Source: Lathyrus oleraceus (taxonomy: Eukaryota > Streptophyta > Magnoliopsida > Fabales > Fabaceae). From it: DNA of 64,000 nucleotides. Made by a program: the position numbers and the translations under genes. The notes under the pieces are model-generated. The model was not told where the DNA came from. It saw only the letters and a program-made list of their open reading frames with translations, and ran no database searches. The stretch lies in the NCBI RefSeq assembly GCF_024323335.1, contig NC_066581.1, positions 460,681,197 to 460,745,196 on the forward strand, read 5' to 3'. Of the stretch, positions 40,199 to 61,693 are shown one piece after another (positions within the stretch are counted from its first letter, which is position 1; each line of letters starts with the position of its first letter).

Positions 40199-41176
40199 CT
40201 TAGGATAGGTTGGCCCTTGTGCCATTTAGCTAGAAACCATAACTTAGGGTTGATTTTGCATGACAACATCTAGGCTCGAGTCGTAGTCTCCCTAGAGTTG
40301 TGTCTCCCTCTGTTATCTGGTTAGGCTAGTCCTTTATCCCTCCGTAGGGGAACTACATCGCCCTGATCTTCCTACCAGATGAAGTATGTAGGCAGGAGAT
40401 TGAGCTGATCTCTCCGGGCGCCCTTTTTTTCTTTTTGTGTGTTGTTTGACCTTTGCTAGGCTCGAGTCCCCGTACTCCTTAGCATTTGCTGTCTGTTTGT
40501 GTGCGTTTGACAGTTATAGGCTGAGTCCCCGACTCCCTATCTATCTGTTGTGTTGTTTAGGTTCGGATGTCAATGTAAGTCCAGTGATTGGCATTTGGGC
40601 TCCACGTTCGCCTCTTTGCGTGTGTTTAGGTTCGGATGCTGACATAAGTCCAGCGATTGGCAGTCGGGCTCCACGTTTGCCTTTGTCCTGTTTGTTTGTG
40701 TGCGTGTCGGCCGAGCTACGAATGCTCTGATTCTTCTCTCGTCCGAGAAGATACGTATGCATAGGATGCGATATCCTAGCGAGCATGTGTCGTTTCCCCA
40801 GTCCGAACTACTTGGACTCTGATGTCTATGCCTGATAGACTAAGTAGGCCCAGGATGCGACATCCTGCCGAGTTCAGTTTCAGTCAGTCTCTTTCCTTTC
40901 TTTCAGCCAGTGTGTGTGTGAATATTTGAGCAGTGTTTAGCAACCAATTTTCCTTTCTAGTGTGCGTGGATCCCGTAGAGTACTACGGATGCGTAGGGGT
41001 GCTAATACCTTCCCTTCGCATAACCGACTCCCGAACCCATACTCTTTGGTCGCGAGACCATGTTCTTTCCTAGGTTTACTCTGAGCGTTTCCTTTCCCTC
41101 TTTTGGGATAAATAACGCACGGTGGCGGCTCTGTTGTTCTTTCTTTTCCCGCCGGTTTTTCGCGCGATGCGACAGC

Positions 41177-42020: not shown

Positions 42021-43385
42021 ATGGCAACAGTCCCAGAATTGAAGCGGAAAACTTGTATCTACGTTTTTCACCGGGAGCCTTTAACGCCTCTGATTGAGTT
42101 GGGCAGTCTTGTGACCAGTGATCGTCTAGGGGGGTTCGTGAACCAGTATGGGGATATCCTGACAGTGTTGAAGACAGTAGTTGACCCGGTGCCGCTGCAG
42201 ACACTTCTTCAGTTCTATGACCCGGAGCTTAGATGTTTCACGTTCCAAGATTACCAGTTAGCACCTACTCTCGAGGAGTATTCTATATTGTTGAGCATCC
42301 CGATTCAGCATCAGGTTCCTTTCTTGGACGTACCAAAGGAGGTTGACTTTAAGGTTGTTGCCAGAGCTCTCCGGTTGAGTGTTAAGGAAGTTTGTGATAA
42401 TTGGAAGCCCAGTGGGGGAGTTGTGGGTCTGCCGTTGAAGTTTCTTCTGAGAATAGCCAGAGTTGAAGCGGAAAAGGGGAATTGGGAAGTTTTTCACGCA
42501 CAGCTAGCTGCCATGATCTATGGGATCATCCTATTTCCCAGTATGCCAAATTTCATTGACTTCACTGCTATCAGCATTTTCATCAGAGGGAATCCAATCC
42601 CTACTCTTCTAGCAGATACTTACTATGCCATTCACAGCAGGCATGGTAAGGGTGGAGCCATCAGGTGTTGTCTACCTCTTCTGTTCAAATGGTTCATGTC
42701 TCTTCTGCCAGCCAGTGGACCGTTTGTGGATACCCAGAGCACTCTGAAGTGGACTCAGAGGATCATGTCGCTCACATCTTATGACATCAGATGGCAATCT
42801 TACCGGATGAATGTGAAGAATGTTATTATGAGCTGTGGAGAATTCCGGAATGTGCCACTCGTGGGGACCAAGGGTTGTATAAATTATAATCCAGTTCTTT
42901 CTCTTCGCCAGTTAGGTTTTGTTATGAGTAGAAGACCACGTGAAGCTGAGATAGCCGAGAGTGTGTACTTTGAGAAGAAGGATGACCCTGTTAGGTTGGA
43001 GCAGATTGGGAGAGCTTGGAAGTCCATTGGTGTCAGAGATGGATCCGTCTTAGGGAAGAAGTTTGCCATAGCCATGCCCGATTACACTGAGTGGGTCAAG
43101 AAGAGAGTGGAAACTTTGTTGTTACCCTATGATAGGATGGAGCCGTTGCAGGAGCAACCACCTTTGATTCTTGCTGATAGTGTGCCTGCTGAGCACTATA
43201 AGCAAGCCCTGATGGAGAATCGTCGGTTGAGGGAGAAGGAGCAAGACACCCATATGGAGCTGTACAAAGCTAAAGCTGATAAGCTGCACTTGGCCCATCA
43301 ACTCAGGGAAGTGCAAGGAGAAGATGCTAGCAGACTGAGAAGCAAGAAGAGATCCTACGAGGAGGTGGAGAAGTCTTGGAGCTGA
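42021..43385 (+). CDS. Ogre ORF1 protein, function unknown (DUF7745-like)
   Basis: This ORF of 454 residues is characteristic of Ogre elements and precedes gag. Its function is unknown. The body (residues about 1-360) has well-preserved blocks also seen in element A: FYDPELRCFTFQDYQLAPTL, LLSIPIQHQVPF, GNPIPTLLADTYY, GGAIRCCLPLLFKWFM, MSLTSYDIRW and NVPLVGTKGCINYNP. I associate this with the plant DUF7745 group; the name is from memory. Residues about 385-450 are strongly charged and look like a coiled coil. The start is the ATG at 42021, 30 bases after a splice-acceptor-like CAG. Coding signal appears to continue in another frame to a TAG at 43496-43498 (Cys-rich CSECSLLIDQCHYL), so a single-base deletion near 43370 has probably shortened this copy by about 40 residues. 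Confidence 0.85.
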   Translation: MATVPELKRKTCIYVFHREPLTPLIELGSLVTSDRLGGFVNQYGDILTVLKTVVDPVPLQTLLQFYDPELRCFTFQDYQLAPTLEEYSILLSIPIQHQVPFLDVPKEVDFKVVARALRLSVKEVCDNWKPSGGVVGLPLKFLLRIARVEAEKGNWEVFHAQLAAMIYGIILFPSMPNFIDFTAISIFIRGNPIPTLLADTYYAIHSRHGKGGAIRCCLPLLFKWFMSLLPASGPFVDTQSTLKWTQRIMSLTSYDIRWQSYRMNVKNVIMSCGEFRNVPLVGTKGCINYNPVLSLRQLGFVMSRRPREAEIAESVYFEKKDDPVRLEQIGRAWKSIGVRDGSVLGKKFAIAMPDYTEWVKKRVETLLLPYDRMEPLQEQPPLILADSVPAEHYKQALMENRRLREKEQDTHMELYKAKADKLHLAHQLREVQGEDASRLRSKKRSYEEVEKSWS

Positions 43386-43955
43386 GAAGACAGTTGAAGG
43401 AGAAGATTACCCCTCTACCAGAATGCTCAGAATGCTCACTGTTGATAGACCAGTGCCATTACCTGAGGACCCTCATTCCGGAAAACCGTCTGTCTTAGTT
43501 TGTATCTCTGATTGTATTTTGTTGAGAATCACCTCCAGGCTTGTTGGATGGGATTCATTTGCGTGTAAGCCATCTCTTGGATCTTTTGTTAAGAATCACC
43601 TCCAGGTTTGTTGGATGGGGATTCTTTTTCTTTGTACGTTGTTTATTCAGATATTCTGTTGACATTGGTTGTATGCCTTTTTATCCTTATGTATGTATAA
43701 GGATGTCAGCATTTCCCTGTATCTGTTTGTCCTCTTGTTGCTGCAGGTTGCCATCTTTTCAGGATGGGTCAGGCTCTTTGAATGCCTGAGAAATGAGCAT
43801 ATCATGTGCATCATACGCATCATTAGCATCATACTCATGTCATTTTGCATAACAGGTGTTCTTGATCGTGACTTCTCACTCTTGGTTCCTGTTCAGGCAG
43901 GATAGCTGATCAACGTCCGCACCGCTACCCAACAAGACTGAATCAACAGAGAAGT
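43386..43955 (+). other. ORF1-gag spacer of element E
   Basis: The first 110 bases probably encode the frameshifted ORF1 tail. A 40-bp direct duplication (AATCACCTCCAGGYTTGTTGG) lies near 43527-43630. From 43798 there is a run of GCATCAT-like repeats ending in TTTTGCATAACAG at 43855, a good 3' splice site that is also present before gag in element A. Confidence 0.6.
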
Positions 43956-46900
43956 ATGGATCAATTTCAAGCTGAGTTGGCTGAGATGAAGGCTAGCATG
44001 GCCCAGTTTATGAATATGATGCAAGGGGTTGCGCAAGGTCAAGAAGAACTTCGAGCTATGGTTCAGAGACAAGAGGCTGCAAATCCACCGATCAACCATG
44101 CTCCGCCAGAGGGAGGCCCAGTCGATGATAACAATATTGCTGCTGCTGTACCCGTCAACAACTATGCTGTAGGTGATGAGTTAGGGGGTATTCGAATCAA
44201 CGGTCAACCTATTGTTCCAGATGCCGCTAATGCCAGAGTAGTCCGTGCTCCGGCCCGCAATCCTGTTCCGATTGTTGACAGACAAGAGGATTTGTTCTCT
44301 CTGCTCAGTGAAGACGAAGACGTTCTGGGAAGGGTTAATGAGAGAGACCGCAAAGTTGAAGCTCTTGCTGAGAAGATCCGTGCAATGGAAAGTCAGAATT
44401 CTCTCGGTTTTGATGTTACTAATATGGGGTTGGTAGAAGGTTTGAGAATCCCTCACAAGTTCAAAGCACCGTCATTCGACAAATACAACGGTACTTCTTG
44501 CCCTCGCACCCATGTGCAGGCTTACTACAGGAAAATCTCTGCGTATACCGATGATGAAAAGATGTGGATGTATTTTTTCCAAGATAGTCTATCTGGGGCT
44601 TCTTTGGACTGGTACATGGAATTGAAGAGAGATTCGATCCGATGCTGGAGAGATCTGGGTGAGGCCTTCTTGAGGCAATACAAACACAACATGGACATGG
44701 CGCCTAGCCGGACTCAGCTGCAGAGTCTTTGTCAGAAATCCAATGAAAGCTTCAAGGAGTATGCCCAGAGGTGGCGTGAACTAGCTGCTAGAGTTCAACC
44801 CCCTATGCTGGAGAGGGAGTTGACAGATATGTTTATTGGTACTCTTCAAGGTGTGTTTATGGACCGGATGGGGAGTTGCCCGTTCGGTAGTTTTTCTGAT
44901 GTTGTCATTTGTGGAGAAAGGACTGAGAGTCTAATCAAAGCTGGTAGGATCCATGATGCTGGTTCCTCGTCTTCATTAAAGAAACCCTTCTCTGGGGCAC
45001 CTCGCCGTAGAGAAGGAGAGACCAATGCTGTACAGCACAGAGGGGGTGTGTACAGAACAAATGCTAACAGAGATCAATATCGTCCAGTAGCTGCAGTGAC
45101 TATTCCGGCACCTCAACCTCGTCAACAACAACAACCAAGAGTTCAACAACCGCAACAACAACAACAACAACAGCAACGTCCTTATCAGCCTAGGCAGAAA
45201 TTACAGGCTGATAGAAGATTTGATCCTCTGCCCATGTCCTACGCAGAGTTACTACCCGAACTACTCAAGTTGGGGATGATTGAGTTGCGTACAATGGCTC
45301 CGCCTACAGTGCTGCCTCCTGGCTATGATGCTAATGTTAGATGTGACTTTCATTCTGGGGCACCAGGCCACCATACTGAGAAGTGTCGAGCTCTCCAGCA
45401 CAAGGTTCAAGATTTGATCGATGCCAAGTCGATCAACTTCGCTCCAGTGCCTAACGTCGTAAACAACCCTATGCCTCAACATGGTGGGCATAGAGTGAAC
45501 AATATTGAAGGGAAAGAAGCTGAAGATCTGGTTGTTAATGTTGATGATGTTCAGACCTCTCTGCTAGTCGTGAAGGGCCGTCTGTTGAAAGGGGGTGTCT
45601 ACTCGGGCTGTGATGAAGATTGTTTGGGCTGTGCAAAATCTGAGAATGGCTGCGACCAGTTGAGGGCCGGTATCCAGGGTATGATGGATGAGGGTTGTTT
45701 GCAATTCAGTAGGGCTGTAAAAGATCGTGGAACAGCGTCAACTATCACCATTTACTTTAAACCGTCTGAAGAACGTGGACAAAGGGTCGTCAGTGCACCT
45801 GCAGCAAATGGTACCCCAGTTACCATTCCAGTGCCTGTAACCATCAGTGTTCCAACTACTATCGTCGCGTCTGGAAGAAGGGCTGTTGAGAATAGTAGAG
45901 CCGTGCCGTGGAAGTATGATAATGCTCACCGCAGTTACAGAAGGGCTGAAAGTCAGACAAGACCAGTGAATCAAACTCCAGTGACAATTGGTTTACCGAA
46001 TAGAGTTCCTGCAACTGTTGGTCCGGCTGTGGATAATGTAGGAGGTCCAGGAGGTTTTACCAGAAGCGGTCGTCTGTTTGCACCGCAGCCTTTGAGGGAC
46101 AATAATGCTGAAGCTCTCGCCAAAGCAAAAGGTAAGCAAGCTGTGGTTGAGGAAGAACCTGTTCAGAAGGAGGCACCCGAGGGGTCATTTGAGAAGGACG
46201 TGGAGGAGTTTATGAAGATAATCAAGAAAAGTGACTACAAGATTGTGGATCAGTTGAATCAGACTCCGTCCAAGATCTCTATACTTTCACTATTGATGTG
46301 CTCTGAGGCACACCGTAATGCCTTGCTGAAGATGTTGAATGTGGCTTACGTACCTCAAGAGATTTCTGTCAATCAACTGGAGGGTGTGATGGCCAATGTG
46401 AGCACCAGGCATGGTGTGGGTTTCACCAACCTGGACTTACCACCTGAAGGGCGAAACCATAACAAAGCCTTGCACATCACCATGGAGTGCAAGGGGGCAG
46501 TGTTGTCTCACGTATTGGTAGACACCGGGTCGTCGCTGAATGTGTTGCCTAAGCAGATTCTGAGGAAGATTGATGCGGAAGGGTTTGTGCTTAATCCCAG
46601 TGACCTGATCGTTCGTGCTTTTGACGGATCCAAACGTTCTGTGTGTGGGGAAGTTACCTTGCCTGTGAAAATAGGTCCTGAGGTATTCGATATCATCTTC
46701 TATGTTATGGACATCCAGCCCGCCTATAGTTGTTTGTTGGGGCGTCCATGGATTCATGCAGCAGGGGCAGTCTCGTCGACTCTCCATCAAAAGCTCAAGT
46801 ATGTCTGGAACGGTCAGATTGTAACTGTGTGCGGTGAAGAAGAGATTCTGGTGAGTCATCTATCCTCGTTCAAATATGTTGAGGTGGATGGCGAGATCCA

Positions 46901-47300
46901 TGAAACCTTATGCCAGGCGTTTGAGACTGTGGCTCTTGAGAAAGTGGCGTACGCTGAGCAGAGGAAGCCAGGTGCTTCGATCACTTCTTACAAGCAGGCT
47001 AAGGAGGTTGTTGATTCTGGCAAAGCTGAAGGCTGGGGCAAGATGGTGGATTTGCCGGTTAAAGAAGACAAATTTGGTGTTGGTTATGAGCCTCTCCGAG
47101 CAGAGCAGAATGGTCAAGCGGGTCCGAGTACTTTTACCAGCGCTGGGCTGATGAATCATGGCGACGTCTCTGCAACCGGTAGTGAAGACTGTGACAGTGA
47201 TTGTGATTTGGACAACTGGGTTCGCCCGTGTGCACCAGGGGGGTCTATCAACAACTGGACGGCTGAAGAAGTGGTTCAAGTTACTCTTCTGACAGAGTAA
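43956..47300 (+). CDS. Gag-protease polyprotein of element E
   Basis: This ORF of 1,114 residues would make the particle protein and its maturation protease. The N-terminus (1-50) is a Met/Gln-rich coiled coil. The retrotransposon gag domain spans about 165-345 (FKAPSFDKYNG, FFQDSLSGASLDWYMEL, SFKEYAQRWRELAARV). A Gln-rich stretch lies at about 380-410. A zinc-knuckle-like CDFHSGAPGHHTEKC at 463-477 has a C-H-H-C rather than C-C-H-C pattern, shared with element A. The aspartic protease starts near 840 with DTGSS (Asp856, 46521) and ends with LLGRPWIH. The ATG at 43956 is the first long start after the acceptor at 43855. The TAA stop at 47298-47300 lies inside the intron donor (GT at 47297), so this product comes from unspliced RNA; spliced RNA would continue into pol. 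It is intact. Confidence 0.92.
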   Translation: MDQFQAELAEMKASMAQFMNMMQGVAQGQEELRAMVQRQEAANPPINHAPPEGGPVDDNNIAAAVPVNNYAVGDELGGIRINGQPIVPDAANARVVRAPARNPVPIVDRQEDLFSLLSEDEDVLGRVNERDRKVEALAEKIRAMESQNSLGFDVTNMGLVEGLRIPHKFKAPSFDKYNGTSCPRTHVQAYYRKISAYTDDEKMWMYFFQDSLSGASLDWYMELKRDSIRCWRDLGEAFLRQYKHNMDMAPSRTQLQSLCQKSNESFKEYAQRWRELAARVQPPMLERELTDMFIGTLQGVFMDRMGSCPFGSFSDVVICGERTESLIKAGRIHDAGSSSSLKKPFSGAPRRREGETNAVQHRGGVYRTNANRDQYRPVAAVTIPAPQPRQQQQPRVQQPQQQQQQQQRPYQPRQKLQADRRFDPLPMSYAELLPELLKLGMIELRTMAPPTVLPPGYDANVRCDFHSGAPGHHTEKCRALQHKVQDLIDAKSINFAPVPNVVNNPMPQHGGHRVNNIEGKEAEDLVVNVDDVQTSLLVVKGRLLKGGVYSGCDEDCLGCAKSENGCDQLRAGIQGMMDEGCLQFSRAVKDRGTASTITIYFKPSEERGQRVVSAPAANGTPVTIPVPVTISVPTTIVASGRRAVENSRAVPWKYDNAHRSYRRAESQTRPVNQTPVTIGLPNRVPATVGPAVDNVGGPGGFTRSGRLFAPQPLRDNNAEALAKAKGKQAVVEEEPVQKEAPEGSFEKDVEEFMKIIKKSDYKIVDQLNQTPSKISILSLLMCSEAHRNALLKMLNVAYVPQEISVNQLEGVMANVSTRHGVGFTNLDLPPEGRNHNKALHITMECKGAVLSHVLVDTGSSLNVLPKQILRKIDAEGFVLNPSDLIVRAFDGSKRSVCGEVTLPVKIGPEVFDIIFYVMDIQPAYSCLLGRPWIHAAGAVSSTLHQKLKYVWNGQIVTVCGEEEILVSHLSSFKYVEVDGEIHETLCQAFETVALEKVAYAEQRKPGASITSYKQAKEVVDSGKAEGWGKMVDLPVKEDKFGVGYEPLRAEQNGQAGPSTFTSAGLMNHGDVSATGSEDCDSDCDLDNWVRPCAPGGSINNWTAEEVVQVTLLTE

Positions 47301-47552
47301 TTTTCTGTTGTTTTGTCATTTTGCATGAAAATCCTACGTTCTGCCCAAGGCGTAGTGATTCATTTTTGTAGGGCCTCATCATGTTTTAATGATTATCATT
47401 AATGAAGGACATTTTTTGAACAAACTTTGTGATCCTTGTCTTTCTATTTTTTGTTTTCATTTTCCTTTTTCAAAAACAATAAAAATGGCAATGTTTTTTG
47501 TTTTTGTGACTTTATTGAACTCTTTTTCTAAAACAAAGCATCAAACATGCAG
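47297..47552 (+). other. GT-AG intron between protease and pol
   Basis: The donor AGA|GTAATTT is at 47297 and the acceptor AACATGCAG ends at 47552, 256 bp, AT-rich with T-rich stretches. Removing it joins two bases of the last gag-pro codon to the pol exon in the correct frame, which I checked by position modulo three. An intron at this place is a published hallmark of Ogre elements. Retained, it stops translation after protease; spliced, it gives the long fusion. Confidence 0.85.
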
Positions 47553-50118
47553 AAGCGATCTTATGGCATTCACTATGAACAGTTCTGTTATGGCTCAGTA
47601 TGATTTCGATAATCCCATCTACCAAGCTGAAGAGGAGAGTGAGGAAGACTGTGAACTCCCTGCAGAATTGGCCAGATTACTGAAGCAGGAGGAAAGGGTC
47701 ATCCAACCTCATCAGGAGGAGTTGGAAACTATTAATTTGGGTACTGAGGACGATAAAAAGGAAATCAAGATTGGGGCTGCTTTAGAGGACTCTGTCAAGA
47801 GGAGGCTGATTGAGATGCTGAGAGAATATGTGGAAGTGTTCGCCTGGTCGTATCAAGATATGCCTGGTTTAGATACAGACATTGTGATGCATCGATTACC
47901 TCTTAGGGAAGGATGTCCTTCGGTCAAGCAGAAGCTTCGTAGAACGAGTCCTGACATGGCAACTAAGATCAAGGAAGAGGTTCAGAAGCAGTGGGATGCA
48001 GGTTTTCTGGCTGTTACCAGTTATCCACCGTGGGTGGCCAACATCGTTCCTGTGCCGAAGAAGGATGGTAAAGTCAGAATGTGTGTCGATTACCGGGATT
48101 TGAATAGAGCGAGTCCGAAAGATGATTTCCCATTACCTCACATTGATGTATTGGTTGATAATACGGCTCAATCCTCGGTATTCTCTTTCATGGATGGTTT
48201 CTCCGGATATAATCAGATCAAGATGGCGCCAGAGGACATGGAAAAGACGACATTCATTACACCTTGGGGCACGTTCTGCTATAAGGTGATGCCATTTGGG
48301 CTAAAGAATGCTGGTGCTACCTATCAGAGGGCAATGACGACTCTCTTTCATGACATGATGCACAAAGAAATTGAAGTGTACGTAGATGATATGATTGCGA
48401 AGTCGCAGACAGAAGAGGAGCACTTGGTTAATTTGCAGAAGCTGTTTGATCGGTTGAGAAAGTTCAGACTAAGGTTGAATCCGAACAAGTGCACGTTTGG
48501 AGTGAGATCCGGGAAGCTCTTAGGCTTCATTGTCAGTGAGAAAGGGATTGAGGTCGATCCGGCTAAAGTCAAAGCTATTCAAGAGATGCCTGAACCGAAA
48601 ACGGAGAAGCAAGTCCGTGGGTTTTTAGGGAGATTGAACTACATTGCAAGGTTCATATCTCATCTAACTGCTACATGTGAACCAATTTTCAAACTGCTCA
48701 GAAAGAATCAAGCGATCAAGTGGAATGATGACTGTCAGAAGGCTTTTGACAAGATTAAAGAGTATTTACAGAAACCTCCAATCCTTATACCTCCAGTTCC
48801 AGGGAGACCTCTGATAATGTACCTGTCAGTGACTGAGAACTCGATGGGGTGTGTATTGGGACAGCATGACGAGTCTGGTCGAAAAGAGCATGCCATATAC
48901 TACCTTAGCAAAAAGTTTACCGACTGTGAAACAAGATATTCACTGCTCGAGAAAACTTGCTGTGCTTTGGCCTGGGCTGCTCGCCGACTAAGACAGTATA
49001 TGTTGAACCATACTACTTTGTTGATTTCTAAGATGGATCCAGTAAAGTACATCTTTGAGAAACCAGCTCTCACCGGACGTGTTGCCCGTTGGCAGATGAT
49101 TCTAACAGAATATGATATTCAGTACACGTCTCAGAAGGCCATCAAGGGTGGTATTCTGTCAGACTACCTTGCCGAACAACCGATTGAAGATTATCAGCCT
49201 ATGATGTTTGAATTCCCTGACGAAGACATCATGTATCTTAAGATGAAAGATTGCGAAGAGCCTCTTGTCGAGGAAGGACCGGACCCGGATGACAAATGGA
49301 CACTGATGTTTGATGGGGCTGTGAATATGAATGGTAACGGTGTTGGTGCAGTGTTGATCAATCCTAAAGGTGCTCATATACCTTTTTCTTCCAGATTGAC
49401 GTTTGACGTCACCAACAACGAAGCTGAGTATGAGGCTTGTATCATGGGGATAGAAGAAGCCATTGATCTGAGGATCAAAACCCTTGATATATTTGGAGAT
49501 TCAGCTCTAGTGATCAATCAAGTCAATGGAGATTGGAATACGAATCAGCCGCATTTGATTCCGTATAGAGATTACACCAGAAGAATACTGACGTTCTTCA
49601 AGAAGGTGAAGTTGTATCACGTCCCCCGGGATGAGAATCAAATGGCTGATGCCTTGGCTACTTTGTCGTCTATGATCAAAGTTCATTGGTGGAATCACGT
49701 GCCACATGTTGCGGTGAATCGACTTGAGAGGCCTGCGTATGTGTTTGCAGCCGAGTCTGTTGTGATTGATGAGAAGCCGTGGTATTATGACATCAAGAAT
49801 TTCCTCAAGACTCAGGAGTATCCTGAAGGTGCGTCGAAGAATGACAAGAAAACCCTGAGGAGGCTAGCTGGAAGCTTTTATTTGAATCAGGATGATGTGT
49901 TGTATAAGAGAAACTTTGACATGGTCTTGCTCAGATGCGTGGACAGACCCGAGGCAGACATGTTAATGCAAGAAGTTCATGAAGGTTCCTTCGGTACCCA
50001 TGCCGGCGGACATGCAATGGCTAAGAAATTGTTGAGAGCGGGTTATTACTGGATGACTATGGAATCCGACTGTTTCAAGTATGCTCGGAAGTGCCATAAG
50101 TGTCAAAATCTATGCTGA
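47553..50118 (+). CDS. Pol: RT, two RNase H domains, integrase N-terminus
   Basis: This is the exon downstream of the intron; the frame is open upstream to 47389 but the natural entry is by splicing. Reverse transcriptase occupies about 47980-48560, with VPVPKKDGKVRMCVDYRDLN, FMDGFSGYNQIKMA, MPFGLKNAGATYQRAM and the catalytic YVDD at 48379-48390. A first, Ty3-type RNase H follows (about 48800-49000); its first catalytic Asp position reads YLSVTENSMG, so it looks degenerate. A second, archaeal-type RNase H spans about 49290-49670 with all four acidic positions: FDGA (Asp at 49312), NNEAEYEA, GDSALV (Asp at 49498) and QMADALA. This double arrangement is typical of the Tat branch. The integrase HHCC zinc finger ends in CHKC near 50100. 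A one-base excess in the A-run at 50105-50108 then shifts the frame, giving the stop at 50118. Confidence 0.92.
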
Positions 50119-51031
50119 TAAGGTGCATGTACCACCAAGCCCTCTGAATATCATGAATTCGCCTTGGCCGTTTGCCATGTGGGGCATTGATATGATTGGG
50201 AAGATTGAGCCTACTGCTTCGAATGGACATCGCTTCATCTTGGTTGCGATTGACTATTTCACCAAGTGGGTGGAAGCAGCTTCCTATGCTAATGTTACCA
50301 AACAAGTGGTTACCCGGTTCATCAAGAAAGAGATCATATGTCGCTATGGAGTTCCTGAGAGAATCATCACTGACAATGGTTCGAATCTCAACAACAAGAT
50401 GATGAAAGATCTTTGTAAAGATTTCAAGATCGAACATCACAATTCTTCTCCTTACAGACCGAAGATGAATGGTGCTGTAGAAGCGGCAAACAAGAATATC
50501 AAGAAGATTGTGCAGAAGATGGTCGTTACGTACAAGGACTGGCATGAGATGCTGCCTTTTGCTTTGCATGGGTATCGTACCTCAGTACGTACGTCGACCG
50601 GGGCAACCCCTTACTCCCTTGTGTATGGTATGGAAGCTGTCCTACCTGTTGAAGTGGAGATTCCTTCTCTGAGAGTTTTATTGGATGTCAAACTGGACGA
50701 AGCCGAGTGGATTCGAACAAGGTTTAACGAATTGAGCCTTATTGAGGAGAGACGGTTAGCAGCTGTATGCCATGGACAGTTGTATCAGAGAAGGATGAAG
50801 CGAGCCTTTGATCAGAAAGTGCGTCCTCAAAGCTATCAGACTGGTGATTTAGTTTTGAAGAGGATCCTCCCTCCCGGTACAGATAACAGGGGCAAGTGGA
50901 CTCCTAATTATGAAGGTCCGTATGTTGTGAAGAAGGTCTTCTCCGGTGGAGCCTTGATGCTTACAACTATGGATGGTGAAGATTTTCCGTCTCCTGTCAA
51001 CTCAGATGTAGTCAAAAAATACTTCGCATAA
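50081..51031 (+). CDS. Integrase core and C-terminus, frameshifted from pol
   Basis: This frame carries the rest of integrase, which joins retroelement DNA to the host. The true coding signal starts around 50106; the ATG at 50081 is only where the frame opens, so this is not an independent gene. Catalytic residues are Asp (GAT 50189, WGIDMIG), Asp (GAC 50372, TDNGS) and Glu (GAA 50480, GAVEAANK), giving 35 residues between the second Asp and the Glu as in D,D-35-E enzymes. The C-terminal domain has YQTGDLVLKRI and PNYEGPYVVKKVFSGGALML. There is no chromodomain. The stop is TAA at 51029-51031. With the frameshift this copy cannot make full-length pol unless a ribosome shifts or the base is a sequencing error. 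Confidence 0.9.
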   Translation: MLGSAISVKIYADKVHVPPSPLNIMNSPWPFAMWGIDMIGKIEPTASNGHRFILVAIDYFTKWVEAASYANVTKQVVTRFIKKEIICRYGVPERIITDNGSNLNNKMMKDLCKDFKIEHHNSSPYRPKMNGAVEAANKNIKKIVQKMVVTYKDWHEMLPFALHGYRTSVRTSTGATPYSLVYGMEAVLPVEVEIPSLRVLLDVKLDEAEWIRTRFNELSLIEERRLAAVCHGQLYQRRMKRAFDQKVRPQSYQTGDLVLKRILPPGTDNRGKWTPNYEGPYVVKKVFSGGALMLTTMDGEDFPSPVNSDVVKKYFA

Positions 51032-51040
51032 ATTGACCCG

Positions 51041-51262
51041 CTGGACAAAAAGAATAAAAGAGTCCAGGCAAAAAATGGGCATCCCGGCGAACCAAAAAAA
51101 AAAAACAGAAAGAAAAGGTTCGGGCAAAAATTAGGGATAAAATGAAAAGAATTTGTACACCCGGTAAGTCGAAAACCCGCAAGGGCGGCTTAGGCAAAAA
51201 TGGGTATCCCGGTGGATTGAAAACCCGAAAGGGCGATCCAGGCAAAAGTTAGGGATTAAAGC
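51041..51262 (+). repeat. Duplicated two-hairpin module after pol stop (E)
   Basis: There are four hairpins, each followed by GGCAAAA: CTGGAC/GTCCAG (51041-51067), CGAACC/GGTTCG (51088-51122), TAAGTCG/CGGCTTA (51165-51192) and TGGATTG/CGATCCA (51213-51240). The last two enclose AAAA, then CCC-GCAA-GGG or CCC-GAAA-GGG. Spacer text alternates between TGGGYATCCCGG and TTAGGGAT, so the module is a two-fold duplication. Confidence 0.8.
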
Positions 51263-52349
51263 GAAGACTACAGTCTGAGTTGTCTGTACTTCATCAAGCT
51301 TTGTCATCCGCCATCTCGAAAGATGTGATCCGTCCAGTCATTCTTCTCAGAAAGCAGGGAGTTGGGAGGAAAACTGATGATCTGTGAGTTATAACAGAAT
51401 TGGGAAATAGTGGATGCCGTATTCACATTGCCATTAGGATAGATTTTTTCCTTTTATGCGCAATTACCTCTTTCTAGGAATTGCTTCCCTATGTATTTGC
51501 CTCTTCAGGCACATTTTCAATCAATAAAAGTCGTTATTCAGATAAATAGCTTTTCTGTTTTTATTTTTACTGTTTTGTTTGCAAAATGTCCGAATTTTTG
51601 ATAAGCATTGCGTATAAGAACATGGAGGCTACACAATAGCTTGCAGGATGACGAAACATTTGAAAATCATTTTGAATGTTGAGGACACTTGAGCGTATCT
51701 TGCCCACGTACCCCCTGGGGGCATTTTGTTGTGCTGTTTTTCAGGTTGGCATCTGTGAGGACGTTTCCTCAACAGATATTTTCCCCAAGCAAGTTTGGAG
51801 GCTATCAGAGCTATGTTCCCCCGCGAAGACGTCTGTGGATAGTGCTTTCTATTCCCCAACAGATTTAAGAATTGCCTATCCCCAGCAGGCCTGTATTTGC
51901 CAATTTCCTCCCCGAGTGAGGCAGGTCCATTGAATTTTATTTCCAGCATTTATCCTACCTGTGGACTGAAGGATATCCCCAGCGGAGTTTATCTTTCCCC
52001 AGCAGCAGTGCTTTTCTTCAACATGAGTGTGAAGTCGCTTTACCATTCCTCAAGCAGAGTTCCCCGCAGAGTATTTCCCCAAGAGGAGTCTCCCCACAGA
52101 GTCAGAGTATCTGATCATTTTGGCTCCCTAGCCAGGGTTCATTTGCATTTTGCATGTAGTAATCATTGCATCCTCAAACTGCGTAGCATTCCCATTCAAA
52201 TATGGAGCATTACGCCATAGAAAAATTCAAACATATGCATTCATGTGTTAACTTCACCAGACCGTATCCCCGGCAGAGGCGGATCATTTCATTCAACATC
52301 AGCACAGCAAGTCTGCTACAGTTGCCCTTGACAGCATTCAGATTTGATT

Positions 52350-52485
52350 ATCCCCGCAGAGGTTTATTTCCTCACCCGATGGTGACAGAGGTTTATTTCC
52401 TCACCCGATGGTGACAGAGGTTTATTTCCTCACCCGATGGTGACAGAGGTTTATTTCCTCACCCGATGGAGACAGAAAGTTTGTT
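52350..52485 (+). repeat. 29-bp direct repeat, four copies (E 3' UTR)
   Basis: The unit is AGAGGTTTATTTCCTCACCC plus GATGGTGAC, with GAGG-TTTATTT-CCTC able to pair. The last copy has GATGGAGAC. Confidence 0.8.
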
Positions 52486-52598
52486 TTTCCTCAGTGAGAC
52501 CCCCAGCAAGTGATCAGCCTTGCCTTGACATATCTAAGATGTCGTTCTTGTGATACCAGTAAGTGTCATGCTAGCACCCGCGCGTGTTTTCTTTGTTT

Positions 52599-53850
52599 GG
52601 TGTCGGTAAACACCATTGTTTCGGTGTCTGTAAACATCGAGTCTTCCTCCAGTCATCGGTAAATGTCTGGTCATCATTTTTTGGTGTCAGTAAACACCAT
52701 TGCGTCGGTGTCTGTAAACATCGAATTTTCTCTCCAGTCATCGGTAAATGTCTGGTCATCATTTTTTGGTGTCAGTAAACACCATTGTTTCGGTGTCTGT
52801 AAACATCGGATATTTTATCCAGTCATCGGTAAATGTCTGGTCATCATTTTTTGGTGTCAGTAAACACCATTGTTTCGGTGTCTGTAAACATCGAGTCTTT
52901 TCTCCAGTCATCGGTAAATGTCTGGTCATTTTTGATGTCGGTAAACATCATCTTTCGATGTCGGTAAACATCGAGTCTTTCTTTCAGTCATCGGTAAATG
53001 TCTGATAATCCCCAACTAGAAATCCCCAGTAGAGTCATCTGTAAATGTCCTATCTGGTTTCCAGTGGCAAATATTCGTATCTCCCCAATAAATTTCTCAT
53101 TCCCAGTCATCGGTAAATGTCTGGTCATTTCTTTAGATGTCGGTAAACATCATCTTTCGATGTCGGTAAACATCGTGTCCCATCCCAGTCATCGGTAAAT
53201 GCCTGGTCATTCTTTTGATGTCGGTAAACATCACCTTTCGATGTCGGTAAACATCGTGTCCCACCCCAGTCATCGGTAAATGTCTGGTCATTCTTTTGAT
53301 GTCGGTAAACATCATCTTTCGATGTCAGTAAACGTCGAGTCTCATCCCAGTCATCGGTAAATGTCTGGTCGTGAAATCAAGATCCCCAGAAGTCGTCGGT
53401 AAACGTCTCGTCTGGTATCACCACAAGGATTTTGTTCCTCCCCCAAATGGAGATGCCATCGGTAAATGGCCCCGTTTTCTTCGATATCGGTAAATATCGG
53501 ATCCCCAGTTGCAGCAGCCATCGGTAAATGGTCTTGCTGAGTTGACATTGGTAAATGTCAAGTTTCTTCGAAGCCACCATCGATAAATGGTCTTGCTTCC
53601 CTTTTACATCAATTCGTTTTTCCCAGCAGCCATCGGTAAATGGTCGTGCTGAAGTTGATATCGGTAAATATCAAGTTCTAACCATCGGTAAATGGTTTTT
53701 GTTTTCCAGAAGTTTGTTTTCCCCAGCCGCCATCGGTAAATGGTCGTGCTGAAGTTGATATCAGTAAATATCAAGATTCCAGTTCCTCAACCATCGGTAA
53801 ATGGTTTTGCTTTTCTGAAGCTGTCATGCAGTTTGTCATCGGTAAATGAC
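52599..53850 (+). repeat. Array of 39 constant-loop, variable-stem hairpins (E)
   Basis: Each unit is a stem, a six-base loop and the complementary stem. By hand count the loop is CGGTAA in 27, CAGTAA in 5, CTGTAA in 5, TGGTAA in 1 and CGATAA in 1; the closing pair is always T-A. Stems include GGTGT/ACACC, CCAGTCAT/ATGTCTGG, CGATGT/ACATCG, CGATAT/ATATCG, TTGATAT/ATATCAA, TTGACAT/ATGTCAA, AACCAT/ATGGTT, GCCAT/ATGGC and GTCAT/ATGAC. The first part repeats every 85 then about 81 bp in triplets of hairpins; the last part is irregular. Confidence 0.9.
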
Positions 53851-53970
53851 GTGGTTCTTTTGTATTATATCCAGTCTGTGCAAATTCTACGGTTCTTTGG
53901 TATTCAATCCCTGTTTACCCTGAAAGTCTGACAGCCGGCGCTCTCATCCATTCGGGTTCCCAGCTGATTG

Positions 53971-53982
53971 AATAGGGGCAGC
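53971..53982 (+). other. Polypurine tract of element E
   Basis: AATAGGGGCAGC abuts the 3' LTR at 53983; nearly identical to the PPT of element C. Confidence 0.85.
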
Positions 53983-56900
53983 TGTAGCACCTCAAATTTG
54001 CACCTATCATTATGCATACATTTTCATATTAGGTCATAGCATATCATGATCCATTGCATAGCATTTGCATTGTCCTTCAGTTGCCTCAAGAGCAAGCAAT
54101 CAAGAACTAGGTCAAACTAATCTCCTGATCAGTCAATCAAGCAAGCAAAAGAATTTTTCATTGAACCAAGGCCTTGGGGTTTGTCCAACAAGTTCACATG
54201 ACTTGGAGGTCTATTTGAAGTGTTTTGGTCAAGGGTTGAGGGCTCAGAGGTCAGCAGTTCATGCCCAGACAGTCAAAAGTCAAAGAAAGTCAACTGTCCG
54301 TCAAGGCAGTGGATGGTGGTCATTCTTGTGGAATTTGGGCACCATGGTCAATAATCAAGAGTTCATACAACTTGGGACATCACTTGAAGTCAAATTCTCA
54401 AGGAATTAGGGTTTGGAATTCATCAGTCAACGCATAATCAGTCAGAAACCCTAAAAGTCAACTGTTGGTCAACTGTCCATTTAATCAGCGATTGGATGAT
54501 TGGGATTGATTTGTGAGAGTTCATTCATGTCCAAATAGTCATCATATATCATGCCAAACACCATCATGGAGGAATTTGAAGCCAGATCAGAAATTTCCCA
54601 AAACGGAAACTGGGCCTGTAACTGAAACTTGCCATAAATGGAAAGTTTTGATCCTCAAACTTACATCATGATACAAGCCTCAAATGAATTTTTGCCCAAC
54701 ATAAAAGTTGAAGATCTTGTTCTCCCATTTCCAAAAAGTCCTAGAACTCTCAATTCCCATGTGTGGTTGGCAAGTTATGATCGAATCGATTTCAGAAAAT
54801 CTTGAACTTCAGAAGGCCATATCTCCCAAACCGTTTGGCCAATTTTGGTGGGGTTTTTTCCTACAAGTCACATTTGATCCCCTCTTTCCAAAAATATAAG
54901 TTTCATGAGCCAAAACTTCACCAATCAAAATGGCATATTTTGACCTTTTTCATTTAAATGTAAGTTTGACCAAGAGTTGACTTTTTGACTCAAACATTTT
55001 TTCAACATTTGGCCAATTGGAACAGCTCATAAATATCATTTTGAGTGTGTTTGCAAAGTCAAATTATGCAGCACATGTGAATCTATACTTGGTTGCTTGA
55101 ATTGTAAGAAAAGTACAAGTTTCACTATACCACTCCATGCTTGCATTTGAACCATGCCTTGGTACTTTCAAGCAGAGTTTTTAGAGGCTATTGGCTGTCA
55201 TTTTGAACACATATTTGTAAGAAAAACCAGTAGTACAAAAGGCCATTCACTATTTGCTTGATTTTTGAGCAAAAGGACAAATGTGACCATGTCCTCCATA
55301 CCTCCATGCCATGATTTGAACTGGCCAACAGCAACACAGCAGCAAGGGTAGCTTTTCTTTCTGTCAGCTGTTGGGATACACAAAAAGGCTACAGGATACC
55401 ACAGAATTTCAGGCTGCAAAAAAATCTCATCTTGGCTTTGGCATTCCTTCTTTTTTTTTTTCTGTCAACAAACATAGCAAAACCTGCAGCAGCATAACCT
55501 AACCTGCAGCAGCATTCTAAACTTCAAAAAAACCTGTCACCACATCCAACAACAAAAAAAAAGCCTGGCTTAATTCCCTCATCCTACAACTGCCCTCATT
55601 TTTGCTATTTTGATTTCCAATTTTTCTGTCCAAGCACCTAAGCCCAAAACCCTTGGCATTTTTCTGTCATACACACACATAGGACAATAGAAAACCTGCT
55701 GCAGCAGCTCAAAGCCTCACCCTGCTGTGCAACTAAAAGGACAACCATACCATGCCATTTTTAATGCAGCAAAGTACAAGCAATTTTTCTGTCATTTTTG
55801 AAGGACAGTAGTAACAGCAGGGCATGGTATTTTGGCTTGCACTAGTAATGGCAGTTGCAGCAGAAAAGACCATTTGGCCAAGGCAAATAAAAAAAGGCAT
55901 TCTGATTCTAAAAAGCACATGGCAGCAGGGGATGATCCGAGACCTTACCTTGGCCATGACAAAAAAAAAACACACACCTGTCATAAGAAAACCAAGGGCA
56001 GACACAAAGAAGGGCCAACACTCAAGAGTAGGGTTTTTTTCTCTTTGCTGAAAAGGGGCAAGGGCATTTTAAAAGAAAACAGGAGGGCAAGATCTCAACT
56101 CTATTCTTTTTCTGTCAATGAGAAACCATGAGCATACCATAACACTTTCACTAATTCTCAAACCTCACTTTGCTTGTGCATTTTCTGCAAAAACCTTGTC
56201 CACCCCAACCAACTTGACCTAGCCTTGCCAATACAACCAAATGCATGCATTCCCTCACCCTAAGACTGCATCAACTCACTTGGCCATTTGCATTTTTTCT
56301 GTCATCAACACAGTAGAACAAACATCCATTCAACCTTGCTTGGCAACCAAGAACTCACTTGCATTATGCCAAACCTTGCCTTGCATTGTCTAAAAAAAAC
56401 TGCACCATTTCCCTGCCATAACAAGACCATTAGCAGACAAAAACAAGCTGACTGAGGCCAAAATCTTGATTTCCCTCTCATTTGGCACTGTTGGAAAACT
56501 GTCAAAAACTCCATCTTTCATGGCTATGCTTGGTACTGCAGAGACCAATCTTGTTCATTTTTCTGCCACACCACAAAATCCTAGCAGCAGACCAACCAAA
56601 GGTTCTTGGACCTGGCCTTGCATTTTCTAAAAATTGTCCAAACACAAGAGTGCCAAAACCTTGCCAACAAACTTGCTAGCAGCATACCACCATACAGCAG
56701 CCACAGACCAAAACATCCATTCTCCTCTCATCTTGCATTTTTTGCACAAAGGGAGTTCTGAGCAAAACATCAAAAAACCCTTGAACCACCTTCATTATTT
56801 CTTCATCTGGACTCCATTTGGAAGTGATTTGCTGCATCAGACATCCTCTGCATAGCCATCTTCATGTCCTGTTTTCTCAAAGCTCAACAAATGGCAAATC

Positions 56901-59900
56901 GAGCTGTGAGATTTTCCAAGCATTCTTGAGCTTGTCTACACCAAGTATCCTTCATTGCCAAGCACAAGGAAGGACTGTTCGAGCACAACAACTTCAAAAC
57001 ACCACTGCATCACCATTGTGCTTCAAATTTGGTAATATTTCGAACTTCATCATTCATTAAGCCATGCCATGTTTCATATAGGTCTTACTTAGTAGGATGA
57101 TTTAAGCTTTGAATCACATTAAATGGATGACTATGCTGTGAGATATCGTGATTTTCATTTTGGTGAACAAATGCATTTTTCATCGATTTAGCTTGGTTAT
57201 AATGATTTGGTGAAAAGTGGTGCCATGTTTGTGATACTGAATGTTTGATGATGCTATTGGTGCAATTAATTTTAGGATCTGAGCATTTTGATTTTCCTGC
57301 TTACATGAAAATGATGATCATGCTGTTACCTTAAAACCCTAATTCTGTCCAGAGTTTCTCACTGTTAATGCTTGTTTGGTGGATGGTTGATGTTGCTTGA
57401 TGGTCACTATGCCATGACATTGTGTGTTTGTGTTTGAAACTTGTTGGATGTTGATGAATCATAAACATGAAATTGGTGTTGCTTACCCTGCTAAGTGATT
57501 TTTGTTTTCTTTGATGTTGATTAAGCATGAGATGAGTTTATGCAGGCTGCTGTTTAAACCCTAGTCTTCCAGAAGCCTACATGAATTTAGTGGCTTACTA
57601 TTGTTCTAGTTGTGTGAGAGCCAATACTATGCTATGCCCTGCTGTTGTTATTAGTATTTGCATGATCATTTGTTACTGCTATGCTGAAAATGATGTGTAC
57701 CCCTGCTGTTTTGCTGCCTTAAGCTGCCAAGGAAATCTCATGAATATGATGTATGCTGTTGTTCATGATTGGTGGTTTGAATGATGATTAGTGATGAATA
57801 CATGTTACCATGCTGCTAAACCCTGCCATGATAAATCCTGTGATTTTTCCAGAAAACTAGATCATGTATGTTGGCTGATGTTTGTCTGTTGGTGTTAGAA
57901 GTTTGTTTTGATGTTGGTAAATACACAATGAACCATGCCTAGAAAATCCATGTGAATCATGTTTGAATGCTGTTTGATTGGTTGTTTATTTGTTGGAATT
58001 TCAATTGATTACTTGATGCTGTCAATGCCCTGCTGTTTGAAAAAACCTTTAAACTTGCTTGTAAAATCCACATGATTGATGTTTGGTTGTGTTGGTCGTG
58101 GATGCTTGACTTATGTATTGTTACATGTTGCTGTTCATTTGTTGTTGTTTCTGGTTGATTGATCAAGCTGAATGATGAGCCATTGTTGTTGTTTGTTTTG
58201 TTTTGGATCGATACCATGAGCTTGATGCATTGCCCTGCTGTTTTGAGTTTGTTTGTTGGACTTCATTTTGATTAATTGCATGAAGTTACATGAGTGAGAA
58301 TGCCAAGCCATGATGCTAAAACCCTGTTGCTGTCTTGAACTTAGCCCAGAAATCCATATGTTTTGTGTTACCATGCTGTTGATTGCTTGCTGAATAAATG
58401 CTGTTGTATGCTAGTCAAGTTTTTGTGTTGCTGTTGATTGCCATATGCCATGTATGCTGTAAAACCCTAAGGGTTTATGAGAAAAACCAGAAATTTGAGC
58501 TCCTTTGGCCAATACACTGTTCCATTGGCTGAGAGCCAATGGGAACATTTCATTTCTTTCCCCAAAACGCAGTAGTTTAGATTAGTGAGTCCCAAATTAC
58601 GCTTATGCCATCGTTGACTCTTATGTTGACCAATTGCCATGCCATGTTCTTCATGTTTCCATTCAAATGTTCATCAACTTCCATAATTCATTTTAAATTC
58701 ATTTTAACCCCAAAAATTATGAAATTTTTTGCATGATGATCACAAATGAGTCTAGTATTTTATTGTGAATTTTAATTAATTTTTCAGTGGCTGGATTTTA
58801 AATGATAATTGTTTTCCCAACATGTATGCCAAAATGATACATTGTGCCATTCCTTTTGTGAAATTGTCATATTGCATCCAATGAGCTTGAAAGTTTTTGT
58901 GGTAAAACTAGACACATTGACCTTCATTTCCATATAAAGTTTGTGCATTTATCATTTGTGGATTGAGAGTTATGATTTTTTGAAGTCATGTGTTGCATTT
59001 GGTGTCATACCATGATCATGTATTTTCACAAATTTTGTTCACACACTTCCCCACATCCAAATGACTCCAAATTTTGCATGAATGATCCCTTGTATGTCTA
59101 ATTGATGTATGATTTTTCTTGGAATTAATCATGCTGTTTTCCATTTGATTGAGAATTTTCTTCCATATGTGGTCATTTGTTGACTTTTTGTGCTATGCCT
59201 TGCCAAATCTTTTGTGAAATTCTCAAATCTTATTGTATGACCATGAAATTTCATATGTGATAACTAGACATCTCAAGCTTTGCATTGGTGTTAATCTCAT
59301 TCATTTCTCTTCTGTTTTCAAATTGATATGATTTTTTTGAAGTTGACCCATGCTTGTTGACTTTCACCATGCTTACTTGAATTTGATTTGACTTCATGAT
59401 TTTTTGTTGACTGCCTTCCTCTCATCCAAATGCCATGAAATTTTACATGTCTACCATGTTGGATGTTAGGATTGAGTGTGATTTATTTGATGATTTTTGA
59501 GATTGTTTAGGTTGACTTTTGATGCAAGGCATTCTGTTGACTTTTGTATGCTTTCCTTTGCCTTACTTTGATTTCAAATGTTCATGAAATGATAATGATG
59601 CATGATATGATTGTGGGCCCAATTGTGATTGCTTTCTAATTGGTTGACTTTGACTTTGAGTTGACTTTTCCTTGCTGCCTTGACTTTTTCTTTCATCTTT
59701 GACCCTAGGCTAGCCCTAGTGGTCCTTTGGACTTATGTTGAGTTCATCTGTTTCAGGTTGAGCATAGTGCTTCCAAGATCATACCAATTTGATTGATGTT
59801 TGTTTGTCTATATTGTGCTAACCTTTTGTTTTGTAGGTGACTCATGTGTTTGAGTCTTACTTTGCACAGTTGACCTTCTGTGGTTGACTGTCTATCCATT

Positions 59901-61688
59901 CCTTTTGGTTTTAACTTTGAAACCGTTTACTGATTGGTTTGACTTTTTCAGGTACCTTAGTTGCTTAAGTTCTCTGAACTTGCTTTGCTTTGCTTTTTAG
60001 CAACTTGCTTGAGGTATAATCTCTTTTACTCCATGTAGTCTGGAAGACCTGGCCTGTTACTTGGCCAGGCAACTGTCTGAAGTCCTCCTTAAGAGGCAAT
60101 GTTTGTGGATGTTTACTTTTGTCCCTGCATAGAGTCAAAGTCCTCCTAAGTGAAGAGGCAATTGGTGGAAGGTAGGGATATGCAATCTATCCCCCACTAT
60201 TCAGTGTGTCATCTGCCTTGCTCACACCACTGTGTTGATGCATTGCAGATACAAACCCAAGATCTTGTACAACTGTACAGTTGAGTCAGTTTTAATGTGT
60301 AGAAGGGTTCCCACTTTCTGAACCCACACATTCTTGTCTTGAGCTCTCCCAGGCCAGGGATAAGAGCTGTGAGGTCTCATCCTCACTTCATCCTTTCATC
60401 TGCTTCACCTTAGCCCCTCAATGGCAAGGTTAAGAGCAACATTCACCCAGTTCCAGAGGTTTGTTTGTTGAGGTTGATATGACCCCTTGACTAAAACCTA
60501 ACCCTTGTTTGAGCCACTTGTTTGTGTATAGCGTGTGCTATCTGTGCTTGTAGGATAGTTTGACTTGCTTCCTGTGCAAGATAGGATAGTTTGACTTGCT
60601 TCCTGTGCAAGTTAGGATAGTTTGACTTGCTTCCTGTGCAAGTTAGGTTTTGCTTGGCTTGCTTCCTGTGCAAGTTAAGTGTGTGTGGCTTGCTTCCTGT
60701 GTGAGCCATACTTAGGATAGGTTGGCCCTTGTGCCATTTAGCTAGAAACCATAACTTAGGGTTGATTTTGCATGACAACATCTAGGCTCGAGTCGTAGTC
60801 TCCCTAGAGTTGTGTCTCCCTCTGTTATCTGGTTAGGCTAGTCCTTTATCCCTCCGTAGGGGAACTACATCGCCCTGATCTTCCTACCAGATGAAGTATG
60901 TAGGCAGGAGATTGAGCTGATCTCTCCGGGCGCCCTTTTTTTCTTTTTGTGTGTGTTGTTTGACCTTTGCTAGGCTCGAGTCCCCGTACTCCTTAGCATT
61001 TGCTGTCTGTTTGTGTGCGTTTGACAGTTATAGGCTGAGTCCCCGACTCCCTATCTATCTGTTGTGTTGTTTAGGTTCGGATGTCAATGTAAGTCCAGTG
61101 ATTGGCATTTGGGCTCCACGTTCGCCTCTTTGCGTGTGTTTAGGTTCGGATGCTGACATAAGTCCAGCGATTGGCAGTCGGGCTCCACGTTTGCCTTTGT
61201 CCTGTTTGTTTGTGTGCGTGTCGGCCGAGCTACGAATGCTCTGATTCTTCTCTCGTCCGAGAAGATACGTATGCATAGGATGCGATATCCTAGCGAGCAT
61301 GTGTCGTTTCCCCAGTCCGAACTACTTGGACTCTGATGTCTATGCCTGATAGACTAAGTAGGCCCAGGATGCGACATCCTGCCGAGTTCAGTTTCAGTCA
61401 GTCTCTTTCCTTTCTTTCAGCCAGTGTGTGTGTGAATATTTGAGCAGTGTTTAGCAACCAATTTTCCTTTCTAGTGTGCGTGGATCCCGTAGAGTACTAC
61501 GGATGCGTAGGGGTGCTAATACCTTCCCTTCGCATAACCGACTCCCGAACCCATACTCTTTGGTCGCGAGACCATGTTCTTTCCTAGGTTTACTCTGAGC
61601 GTTTCCTTTCCCTCTTTTGGGATAAATAACGCACGGTGGCGGCTCTGTTGTTCTTTCTTTTCCCGCCGGTTTTTCGCGCGATGCGACA
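53983..61688 (+). repeat. 3' LTR of element E (7,706 bp)
   Basis: Same ends and length as the 5' LTR, offset by 20,514 bp apart from one- or two-base length changes. All LTR structures listed for the 5' copy recur here, for example the 31-bp hairpin repeat at about 60552-60710 and the hairpin at 60371-60388. There is no gene. Confidence 0.95.
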
Positions 61689-61693
61689 GACAT
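61689..61693. other. Target-site duplication of element E (right)
   Basis: GACAT, identical to 33464-33468. Confidence 0.95.

Follow-up and report, generated by a model that had tools for sequence, protein, structure and literature searches.

The 3' untranslated regions (UTRs) of Ogre elements carry tandem repeats, as the earlier note on this DNA correctly stated (PMC7004042, PMC3305785), and these elements account for a considerable share of some legume genomes, with 45% given for Lathyrus sativus (PMC7004042). Published work describes such arrays for Tat/Ogre 3' UTRs and reports that they pass into satellites (PMC7004042, PMC3305785; for Retand, PMC11963269), and the function of the GmOgre minisatellites was stated as not known (PMC3305785). 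The Ogre element analysed here raises the question of why such a region should hold some 40 small hairpins in which the loop is nearly constant while the stem is not. The prior view is that the repeats are by-products of strand transfer and seeds of satellite DNA. The reading preferred here, to which a probability of about one half is assigned, is that the array consists of about 40 loop-specific protein-recognition hairpins on the sense genomic RNA, most plausibly used for export or packaging.

The element carrying the array

All coordinates refer to the window, the whole 64-kb stretch of DNA that was analysed. The following parts of the element were identified.

33469-61688, + strand: full-length Ogre/Tat Ty3-gypsy LTR retrotransposon (LTR pair, TG...CA ends, target-site duplication)
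33469-41174, + strand: 5' LTR (comparison of the LTR pair, inspection of the ends)
41754-43385, + strand: extra ORF1 with DUF7745 (stop-to-stop frame; Pfam PF24924, E=1.7e-117)
43872-47300, + strand: Gag frame with Retrotrans_gag, a CDFH...GHHTEKC motif and a presumably protease-like VDTGS (frame, Pfam, translation)
47359-50118, + strand: pol frame 1 with reverse transcriptase, RNase H, a second RNase H-like domain and the integrase zinc-binding domain (frame, Pfam)
50057-51031, + strand: pol frame 2 with the integrase core, in a frame different from that of pol frame 1 (frame, Pfam)
51176-51233, + strand: two CCC/GGG hairpins with the GNRA tetraloops GCAA and GAAA, right behind pol (hairpin scan)
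52357-52476, + strand: 29-bp tandem repeat of about four copies, three of them with TCACC-CGAT-GGTGA (repeat and hairpin scans)
53971-53982, + strand: purine-rich stretch just before the 3' LTR (sequence inspection)
53983-61688, + strand: 3' LTR (comparison of the LTR pair, inspection of the ends)

The element is young and full-length. Its two LTRs are 99.83% identical over 7.7 kb, its ends were seen to be TG...CA by sequence inspection, and it is flanked by GACAT direct repeats, a 5-bp target-site duplication, at 33464-33468 and 61689-61693. The CDFH...GHHTEKC and VDTGS motifs of the Gag frame were seen in its translation. In pol frame 1, Pfam identified RT_RNaseH (481-585), RVT_3 (651-768), which we take to be the second RNase H, and H2C2 (862-916). 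A second, archaeal-type RNase H between RNase H and integrase is a mark of Ogre elements (PMC6317226) and is present here. The same holds for the extra ORF upstream of gag, represented by the DUF7745 ORF (ORF1 before gag, Figure 1 legend of PMC3305785), and for very long LTRs with a 4-5-bp target-site duplication, the LTRs of Ogre being given as up to about 5 kb in PMC6317226. The gag and pol frames are separate, and the stretch between them probably corresponds to the known Ogre intron; the purine-rich stretch at 53971-53982 is probably the polypurine tract. The nearest named relatives of pol, among 120 matches listed of 5573, were from the legumes Trifolium, Vicia, Medicago, Cicer and Lathyrus. 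The hairpin array is located between the end of pol (51031) and the start of the 3' LTR (53983).

Pol is split over two frames overlapping at 50057-50118, between the integrase zinc-binding domain and the integrase core; this split coexists with the near-identity of the LTRs (99.83%).

The hairpin unit and its arrangement

The array and the units referred to individually are the following.

52550-52569, + strand: 40th hairpin, GTGATAC-CAGTAA-GTGTCAT (motif scan, covariance model, folding)
52595-53411, + strand: first array, 27 units, with an 81-85-bp higher-order repeat of three hairpins (repeats, slots)
53391-53408, + strand: unit AGTCGT-CGGTAA-ACGTCT, with a double change from A-T to G-C at pair 1 (slot comparison)
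53451-53854, + strand: second array, 12 units (unit list, slot assignment)

Between 52595 and 53854, 39 units were identified, all on the + strand, which follow the rule T-CNGTAA-A within a self-complementary stem. Stem pairs are numbered outward, with the closing pair as pair 0. As the earlier note had claimed, the loop is CGGTAA in 27 of the 39 units (otherwise CTGTAA in 5, CAGTAA in 5, TGGTAA in 1 and CGATAA in 1), the closing pair is T-A throughout (39/39), and each stem that it named is present, including AGTCGT/ACGTCT at 53391-53408. Its statement that the flanks pair in every unit holds generally, but not for the 11 units of the AGTCAT/ATGTCT type, which are mismatched at pair 3 (T.T in 10 units, T.C in 1). 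The stem is mostly 5-7 pairs long, and the second loop base is free. The fourth loop base is T(U) in 39/39 units, so that the T and the A of GTAA are both fixed in 39/39. A reading of the loop as GNRA (CN followed by GUAA; compare GCAA and GAAA behind pol) is possible but disfavoured, since a plain GNRA loop varies at its second and third bases, which are the invariant U and A here.

Upstream of the 39 units, the 40th at 52550-52569 has seven positions paired and C-G as closing pair. On both strands of the window, it is the only match to NCNGTAAN with five standard pairs outside 52595-53860 on the + strand. The covariance model scores it at only E=7.5 over the whole window, and its claim to be a unit therefore rests on the adjoining array. 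All 40 units face one direction. With 0.68 occurrences expected in the window, TCGGTAAA was counted 29 times, of which 27 are in the array and 2 on the minus strand outside it. The density of six-pair stems with six-base loops was 12.6 per kb inside the array versus 0.54 per kb outside, which excludes chance.

The 40 units are arranged as two three-hairpin higher-order repeats (27 and 11 units) and two single units, of which the 40th is one, and repeat slots were assigned by the similarity and order of the units. The stems of the first array are GGTGT/ACACC or GATGT/ACATC; GGTGT/ACATC, GATGT/ACATC or GATGT/ACGTC; and AGTCAT/ATGTCT with its variants. Those of the second array are GCCAT or ACCAT/ATGGT and GCCAT/ATGGC; GATAT/ATATC and GACAT/ATGTC; and AACCAT/ATGGTT, with GTCAT/ATGAC as the last. 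Thirteen distinct five-pair stems occur among the 39 units, which are not 39 independent cases, the independent material amounting to about eight stem positions. When units of different slots were compared, the five loop bases differed in 71 of 3255 comparisons (2.2%), stem bases 1-4 in 2776 of 5208 (53%), and the flanks in 4284 of 6510.

Covariation of the stems and its origin

The claim of a constant loop with a covarying stem was borne out, the covariation score lying above both shuffles and neutral simulations on trees. For the shuffle test, 29 distinct units with seven pairs were compared with 500 shuffles. Paired cells amounted to 87.2% versus 66.9% in the shuffles (0/500), and the covariation score was 0.645 versus 0.283 (0/500), while slid structures scored at most 0.198. 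In the same 29 units, neither the number of pairs with a double change (reached by 133/500 shuffles) nor that of further pair types (323/500) was above the shuffles. When the right arms were permuted among the 13 distinct stems, the observed pairing was attained in 0 of 20000 permutations.

The neutral null was based on FastTree trees of the units, with two trees (16-mer and 36-mer), four scales and 300 runs each. The 16-mer covariation score of 0.669 exceeded the simulated maximum of 0.505 across the eight settings. The percentage paired (95.3) was attained in the two 16-mer-tree settings of lowest divergence (maxima 100 and 98.2), the maxima of the other six being at most 93.8; the count of 21 double-change cells was attained by three of the four settings of the 36-mer tree (maxima 31, 45 and 48), and six of the eight settings attained the observed number of four pairs that have a double change. 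From these simulations it follows that the case is carried by high pairing and high divergence together, and by neither of them singly.

Within homologous slots, three double changes were identified in the core (pair 3, G-C/A-T; pair 1, A-T/G-C; pair 2, T-A/C-G) and one outside it (pair 5, C-G/T-A); in addition, the closing pair is C-G in the 40th unit (52556) versus T-A elsewhere. Across the 39 units, pairs 1-4 are only Watson-Crick or G-U, except for the T.T/T.C position of the one mismatched type, and within slots no pair among them is newly broken except for the change from T.T to T.C in that type. Pair 5 shows breaks, with A-C in 3/39 units. The double changes in homologous slots answer the objection, named beforehand as one that would overturn the interpretation, that a few units were copied with no independent change of the stem, although the independent events are few because of tandem copying. 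Copying alone is not enough to explain the array.

A mutational origin without function is the competing explanation that survives best, even if it is rather unlikely. Template switching in reverse transcription or repair would make inverted repeats, which tandem amplification would then spread, and in quasi-palindrome correction it also rewrites one arm from the other; such templated correction would give double changes as well. The arrangement of the units in two higher-order repeats fits this course of events, and bacterial tandem arrays with inverted repeats around TCGGTAAA do exist (L229, L236 and L205, see below). Moreover, arrays are common in Tat/Ogre 3' UTRs, and strand transfer during replication has been proposed for them (PMC7004042). 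However, this explanation does not account for five loop bases and a closing pair which stay while the stems change, nor for the absence of A-C intermediates beside the G-U pairs at pairs 1-4. Selection on the hairpin is well supported within this one element, and the data from relatives are consistent with it.

Related arrays in other sequences

Two antisense frames of the array were used as protein queries, by which 14 small proteins were identified on contigs of 518-2091 bp (sources ena and jgi), 11 of them in one search (E values between 1.3e-21 and 0.037) and the other 3 in a second. The contigs are presumably plant DNA in metagenome samples. Back-translation of all 14 proteins gave 95 motif instances, 46 of them distinct and 28 absent from the window. 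As the peptide instances were selected by the loop, loop conservation cannot be judged from them, and related tags do not count as independent. With cells taken singly, 171/184 were pairable versus 148.3 after permutation, and 101/112 versus 88.4 for the new tags (0/5000 each). With codons taken jointly, which is stricter, 169/184 stem cells were pairable versus 145.6 (sd 4.0; 0/2000), and 99/112 versus 85.8 (sd 3.4; 0/2000) for the 28 new tags. Without the loose tags LILLTR, DVLPTP, DILPMS and RYLQME, 92/96 cells of the new tags were pairable versus 78.5 (sd 3.3; 0/2000). Three of the four missing cells are in look-alikes of the mismatched type (KTFTDDF, KTFTDDS and PDIYRWL), and one is in SIFTDSE, a plain break for which full core pairing is impossible. 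Since the back-translated stems are mostly pairable, related arrays exist elsewhere. One instance, VYGH, implies the loop CCGTAA; with the loops of the window added, each of the four bases is represented at this second position of the loop.

No relative of the pol protein was found in the viral contig collection, and blastn of the array against plasmids and phages gave no match at E 1e-5. Scans of viral, bacterial and archaeal sequence collections with motif patterns gave at least 255 loci, in all of which hairpin units were counted; most well-paired units were present in L229 (11), L203 (5), L236 (5), L205 (4) and L213 (4). L229, L236 and L205 were rejected as relatives of the Ogre array, being bacterial tandem repeats with inverted arms. 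Their inverted-repeat units around TCGGTAAA lie at about 2950-3320, 2810-3020 and 455-520 (minus strand), respectively, on contigs of Thermophagus, Verrucomicrobiaceae and Obscuribacterales. In many of the 106 viral contig matches, three copies of TCGGTAAA lie within 52 bases; this repeat recurs among them and has no connection with the array.

The strand forming the hairpins

In pairs 1-4 of the 39 units, eight cells are G-U when read on the sense strand, and none is A-C. They and the 40th unit comprise four sense G-U events in the window (slot 2, pairs 3 and 2; second group, pair 4; unit 52556, pair 2), and the one-sided core changes within slots are all G-U on the sense strand. Back-translation suggests two further G-U events in relatives, in MAFTDTK and in QYLPIS, where the alternative would be a mismatch. 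Among the 24 clear new tags, sense wobble adds three cells to those with Watson-Crick pairing (92/96), whereas antisense wobble adds none (89/96); one of the three, in NHLPMA, is a change common to the window. The occurrence of G-U without A-C on the sense strand thus favours sense RNA as the selected form, modestly and short of proof.

It is unlikely that the other strand is the selected form, either as an antisense transcript or as single-stranded minus cDNA, where the loop would be UACN closed by an extra U-G. The antisense strand folds slightly better, and the antisense frames of the array are open for up to 97 amino acids; for the related Retand elements, antisense ORFs have been reported in the corresponding region (PMC11963269). 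However, on this strand the one-sided core changes would be A-C, in four events and in two more deduced from relatives, and the lack of any cell added by antisense wobble among the 24 tags also speaks against it. The folding energies do not separate the strands. For 53090-53870, z was -2.5 for the sense and -8.3 for the antisense RNA (20 shuffles each), while the sense RNA of 52590-53080 folds at z=-6.3. The mean unit energy is -4.5 kcal/mol for the sense and -4.7 kcal/mol for the antisense form, and the local stem probability exceeds 0.5 in 28/40 and 33/40 units, respectively. The sense stems are weak: those of the T.T type fold at about -2.8 kcal/mol, unit 53038 shows no fold alone, and unit 53192 folds otherwise.

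Possible role of the hairpins

The fixed loop with its free second base, the exchangeable stem and the tens of copies behind pol in the same direction suggest a series of sites at which a single RNA-binding protein docks. MS2-type operators and retroviral packaging stem-loops likewise have fixed loop letters and a stem that is kept as a stem, and fixed loop letters over a covarying stem are what was found in the Ogre array. Unlike these, the Ogre array is tandem, is present in tens of copies in a 3' UTR, and has a binder which is putative. The repeated binding sites on genomic RNA proposed in the earlier note are thus supported in part, by the covariation, the double changes within slots and the stem-compatible relatives; the binding of a protein and its purpose are what we infer from this pattern.

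In the proposed mechanism, each hairpin would present the near-constant loop U-CNGUAA-A, in which only the second loop base is free, on a stem that mostly has 5-7 pairs. A single RNA-binding protein specific for this loop, be it a host or an element protein, would bind the 3' UTR in many copies, and the protein-loaded 3' UTR might mark the full-length RNA. The CDFH...GHHTEKC motif of Gag is only a candidate for the binder. The purpose would most plausibly be to export or package the RNA that retains the intron and serves Ogre as its genome. The genomic RNA copy must stay unspliced. The Ogre intron is spliced from only part of the transcripts (PMC6317226), and animal retroelements handle unspliced RNA by structured export elements or by a protein of their own (PMC11379458, PMC12786077, PMC10309623). 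Because of the partly spliced intron, the need for an unspliced genome and the animal export elements, export or packaging is placed first among the possible purposes.

Several known systems resemble the array in part. The CTE, RTE and MTE are not, as far as described, arrays of about 40 hairpins with the same loop, in which they differ from the Ogre array. The iron-responsive element has a CAGUGN loop, a variable stem and a bulged C; the six-base loop starting with C-N-G-U is shared, CAGUAA being close to CAGUGN. It was rejected, since the Ogre units are without the C bulge, have A and not G as fifth loop base, and gave no Rfam match. In Rfam, no family was found up to E=1 in 51000-54600, and a new RNA element would not match Rfam. 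Recognition hairpins of Smaug/Vts1 have the loop CNGG on a variable stem and thus share with the Ogre units the C-N-G start, the free second base and the variable stem, but the fourth loop base of the latter is U in 39/39 units. Structured RNAs exporting the unspliced RNA of retroelements include the MPMV CTE, the IAP RTE, the MusD MTE and the SERV-K/MER11 CTE, the last of which is located towards the 3' end of its element, like the Ogre array (PMC11379458, PMC12786077).

Within the same lineage, the FabTR satellites of Lathyrus and the GmOgre minisatellites are likewise tandem arrays between pol and the 3' LTR (PMC7004042, PMC3305785). In contrast to the array of the window, a hairpin or covariation rule is absent from their descriptions in the accessible text of these papers. 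The words 'hairpin', 'palindrom' and 'secondary structure' occur nowhere in the texts obtained for PMC7004042 and PMC3305785, nor does 'inverted repeat' in the former or 'inverted' in the latter, and 'hairpin' and 'secondary structure' are missing from that of PMC11963269. The loop-and-stem rule was not found for Ogre in titles and the starts of abstracts among the matches listed, a coverage without Macas 2009, the primary paper on the 3' UTR. For six unit strings of 12-13 letters searched in printed text, the matches listed were, by title, not on plant retroelements.

A cluster of double-stranded DNA sites, acting like an enhancer for plant trihelix (GT) factors, is an improbable alternative to hairpins acting as RNA. 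GGTAAA is a core for these factors and occurs densely and in one direction in the array, but self-complementary covarying arms are left unexplained, and 10/39 units carry CAGTAA or CTGTAA instead. Still less probable are decoy 5' splice sites, in which GGUAA of the loop would pair with U1 snRNA and thereby prevent splicing or premature polyadenylation. The 5' splice-site consensus is matched by GGUAA at its start, and loop and closing base of the 40th unit read CAGTAAG, with G at +5; extended pairing with U1 includes this G, whereas the equivalent base is A in 39/39 units of the array, GU is preceded by G in only 29/39, and the hairpin would hide part of the site. Kissing-loop dimerisation sites for two genomic RNAs, which retroelements package, are hardly credible, as no more than three complementary bases are found among the three main loops, closing pair included, and the loops are not self-complementary.

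If recognition by an RNA-binding protein is the function of the array, the same may tentatively be extended, though this is rather doubtful, to the tandem repeats in the Ogre 3' UTRs of this lineage as a selected multi-copy recognition array, in which stems drift while the loop code stays fixed; RNA-binding sites would then be the ancestors of some plant satellites. On this reading, a fixed loop code with drifting stems would lead to the hypervariability of the 3' UTR. Such a code, if true, would provide a defined RNA bait for the protein handling Ogre RNA; with it, the reason for the tandem repeats in Ogre 3' UTRs could be tested concretely, and the origin of some satellites would be seen in a new light. 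The export of LTR-retrotransposon RNA has, according to a review of 2025, not been studied directly in plants (PMC12786077).

Other repeats and remnants in the window

Behind pol, the context of the two GNRA hairpins at 51176-51233 is repeated (AAACCCGCAAGGGCGG and AAACCCGAAAGGGCGA). In the 29-bp tandem repeat at 52357-52476, the hairpin is perfect in three copies, and a change in the last copy is uncompensated. A five-pair hairpin with another loop, GACAT-ATCTAAG-ATGTC at 52527-52543, lies shortly before the array and is perhaps a decayed array unit. Upstream of the Ogre element and close to its 5' end, perfect GTTAACCGGTTAAC palindromes are present in tandem at 33060-33320. A partial DUF7745 frame was identified at 13960-14550, perhaps a remnant of a second Ogre-like element.
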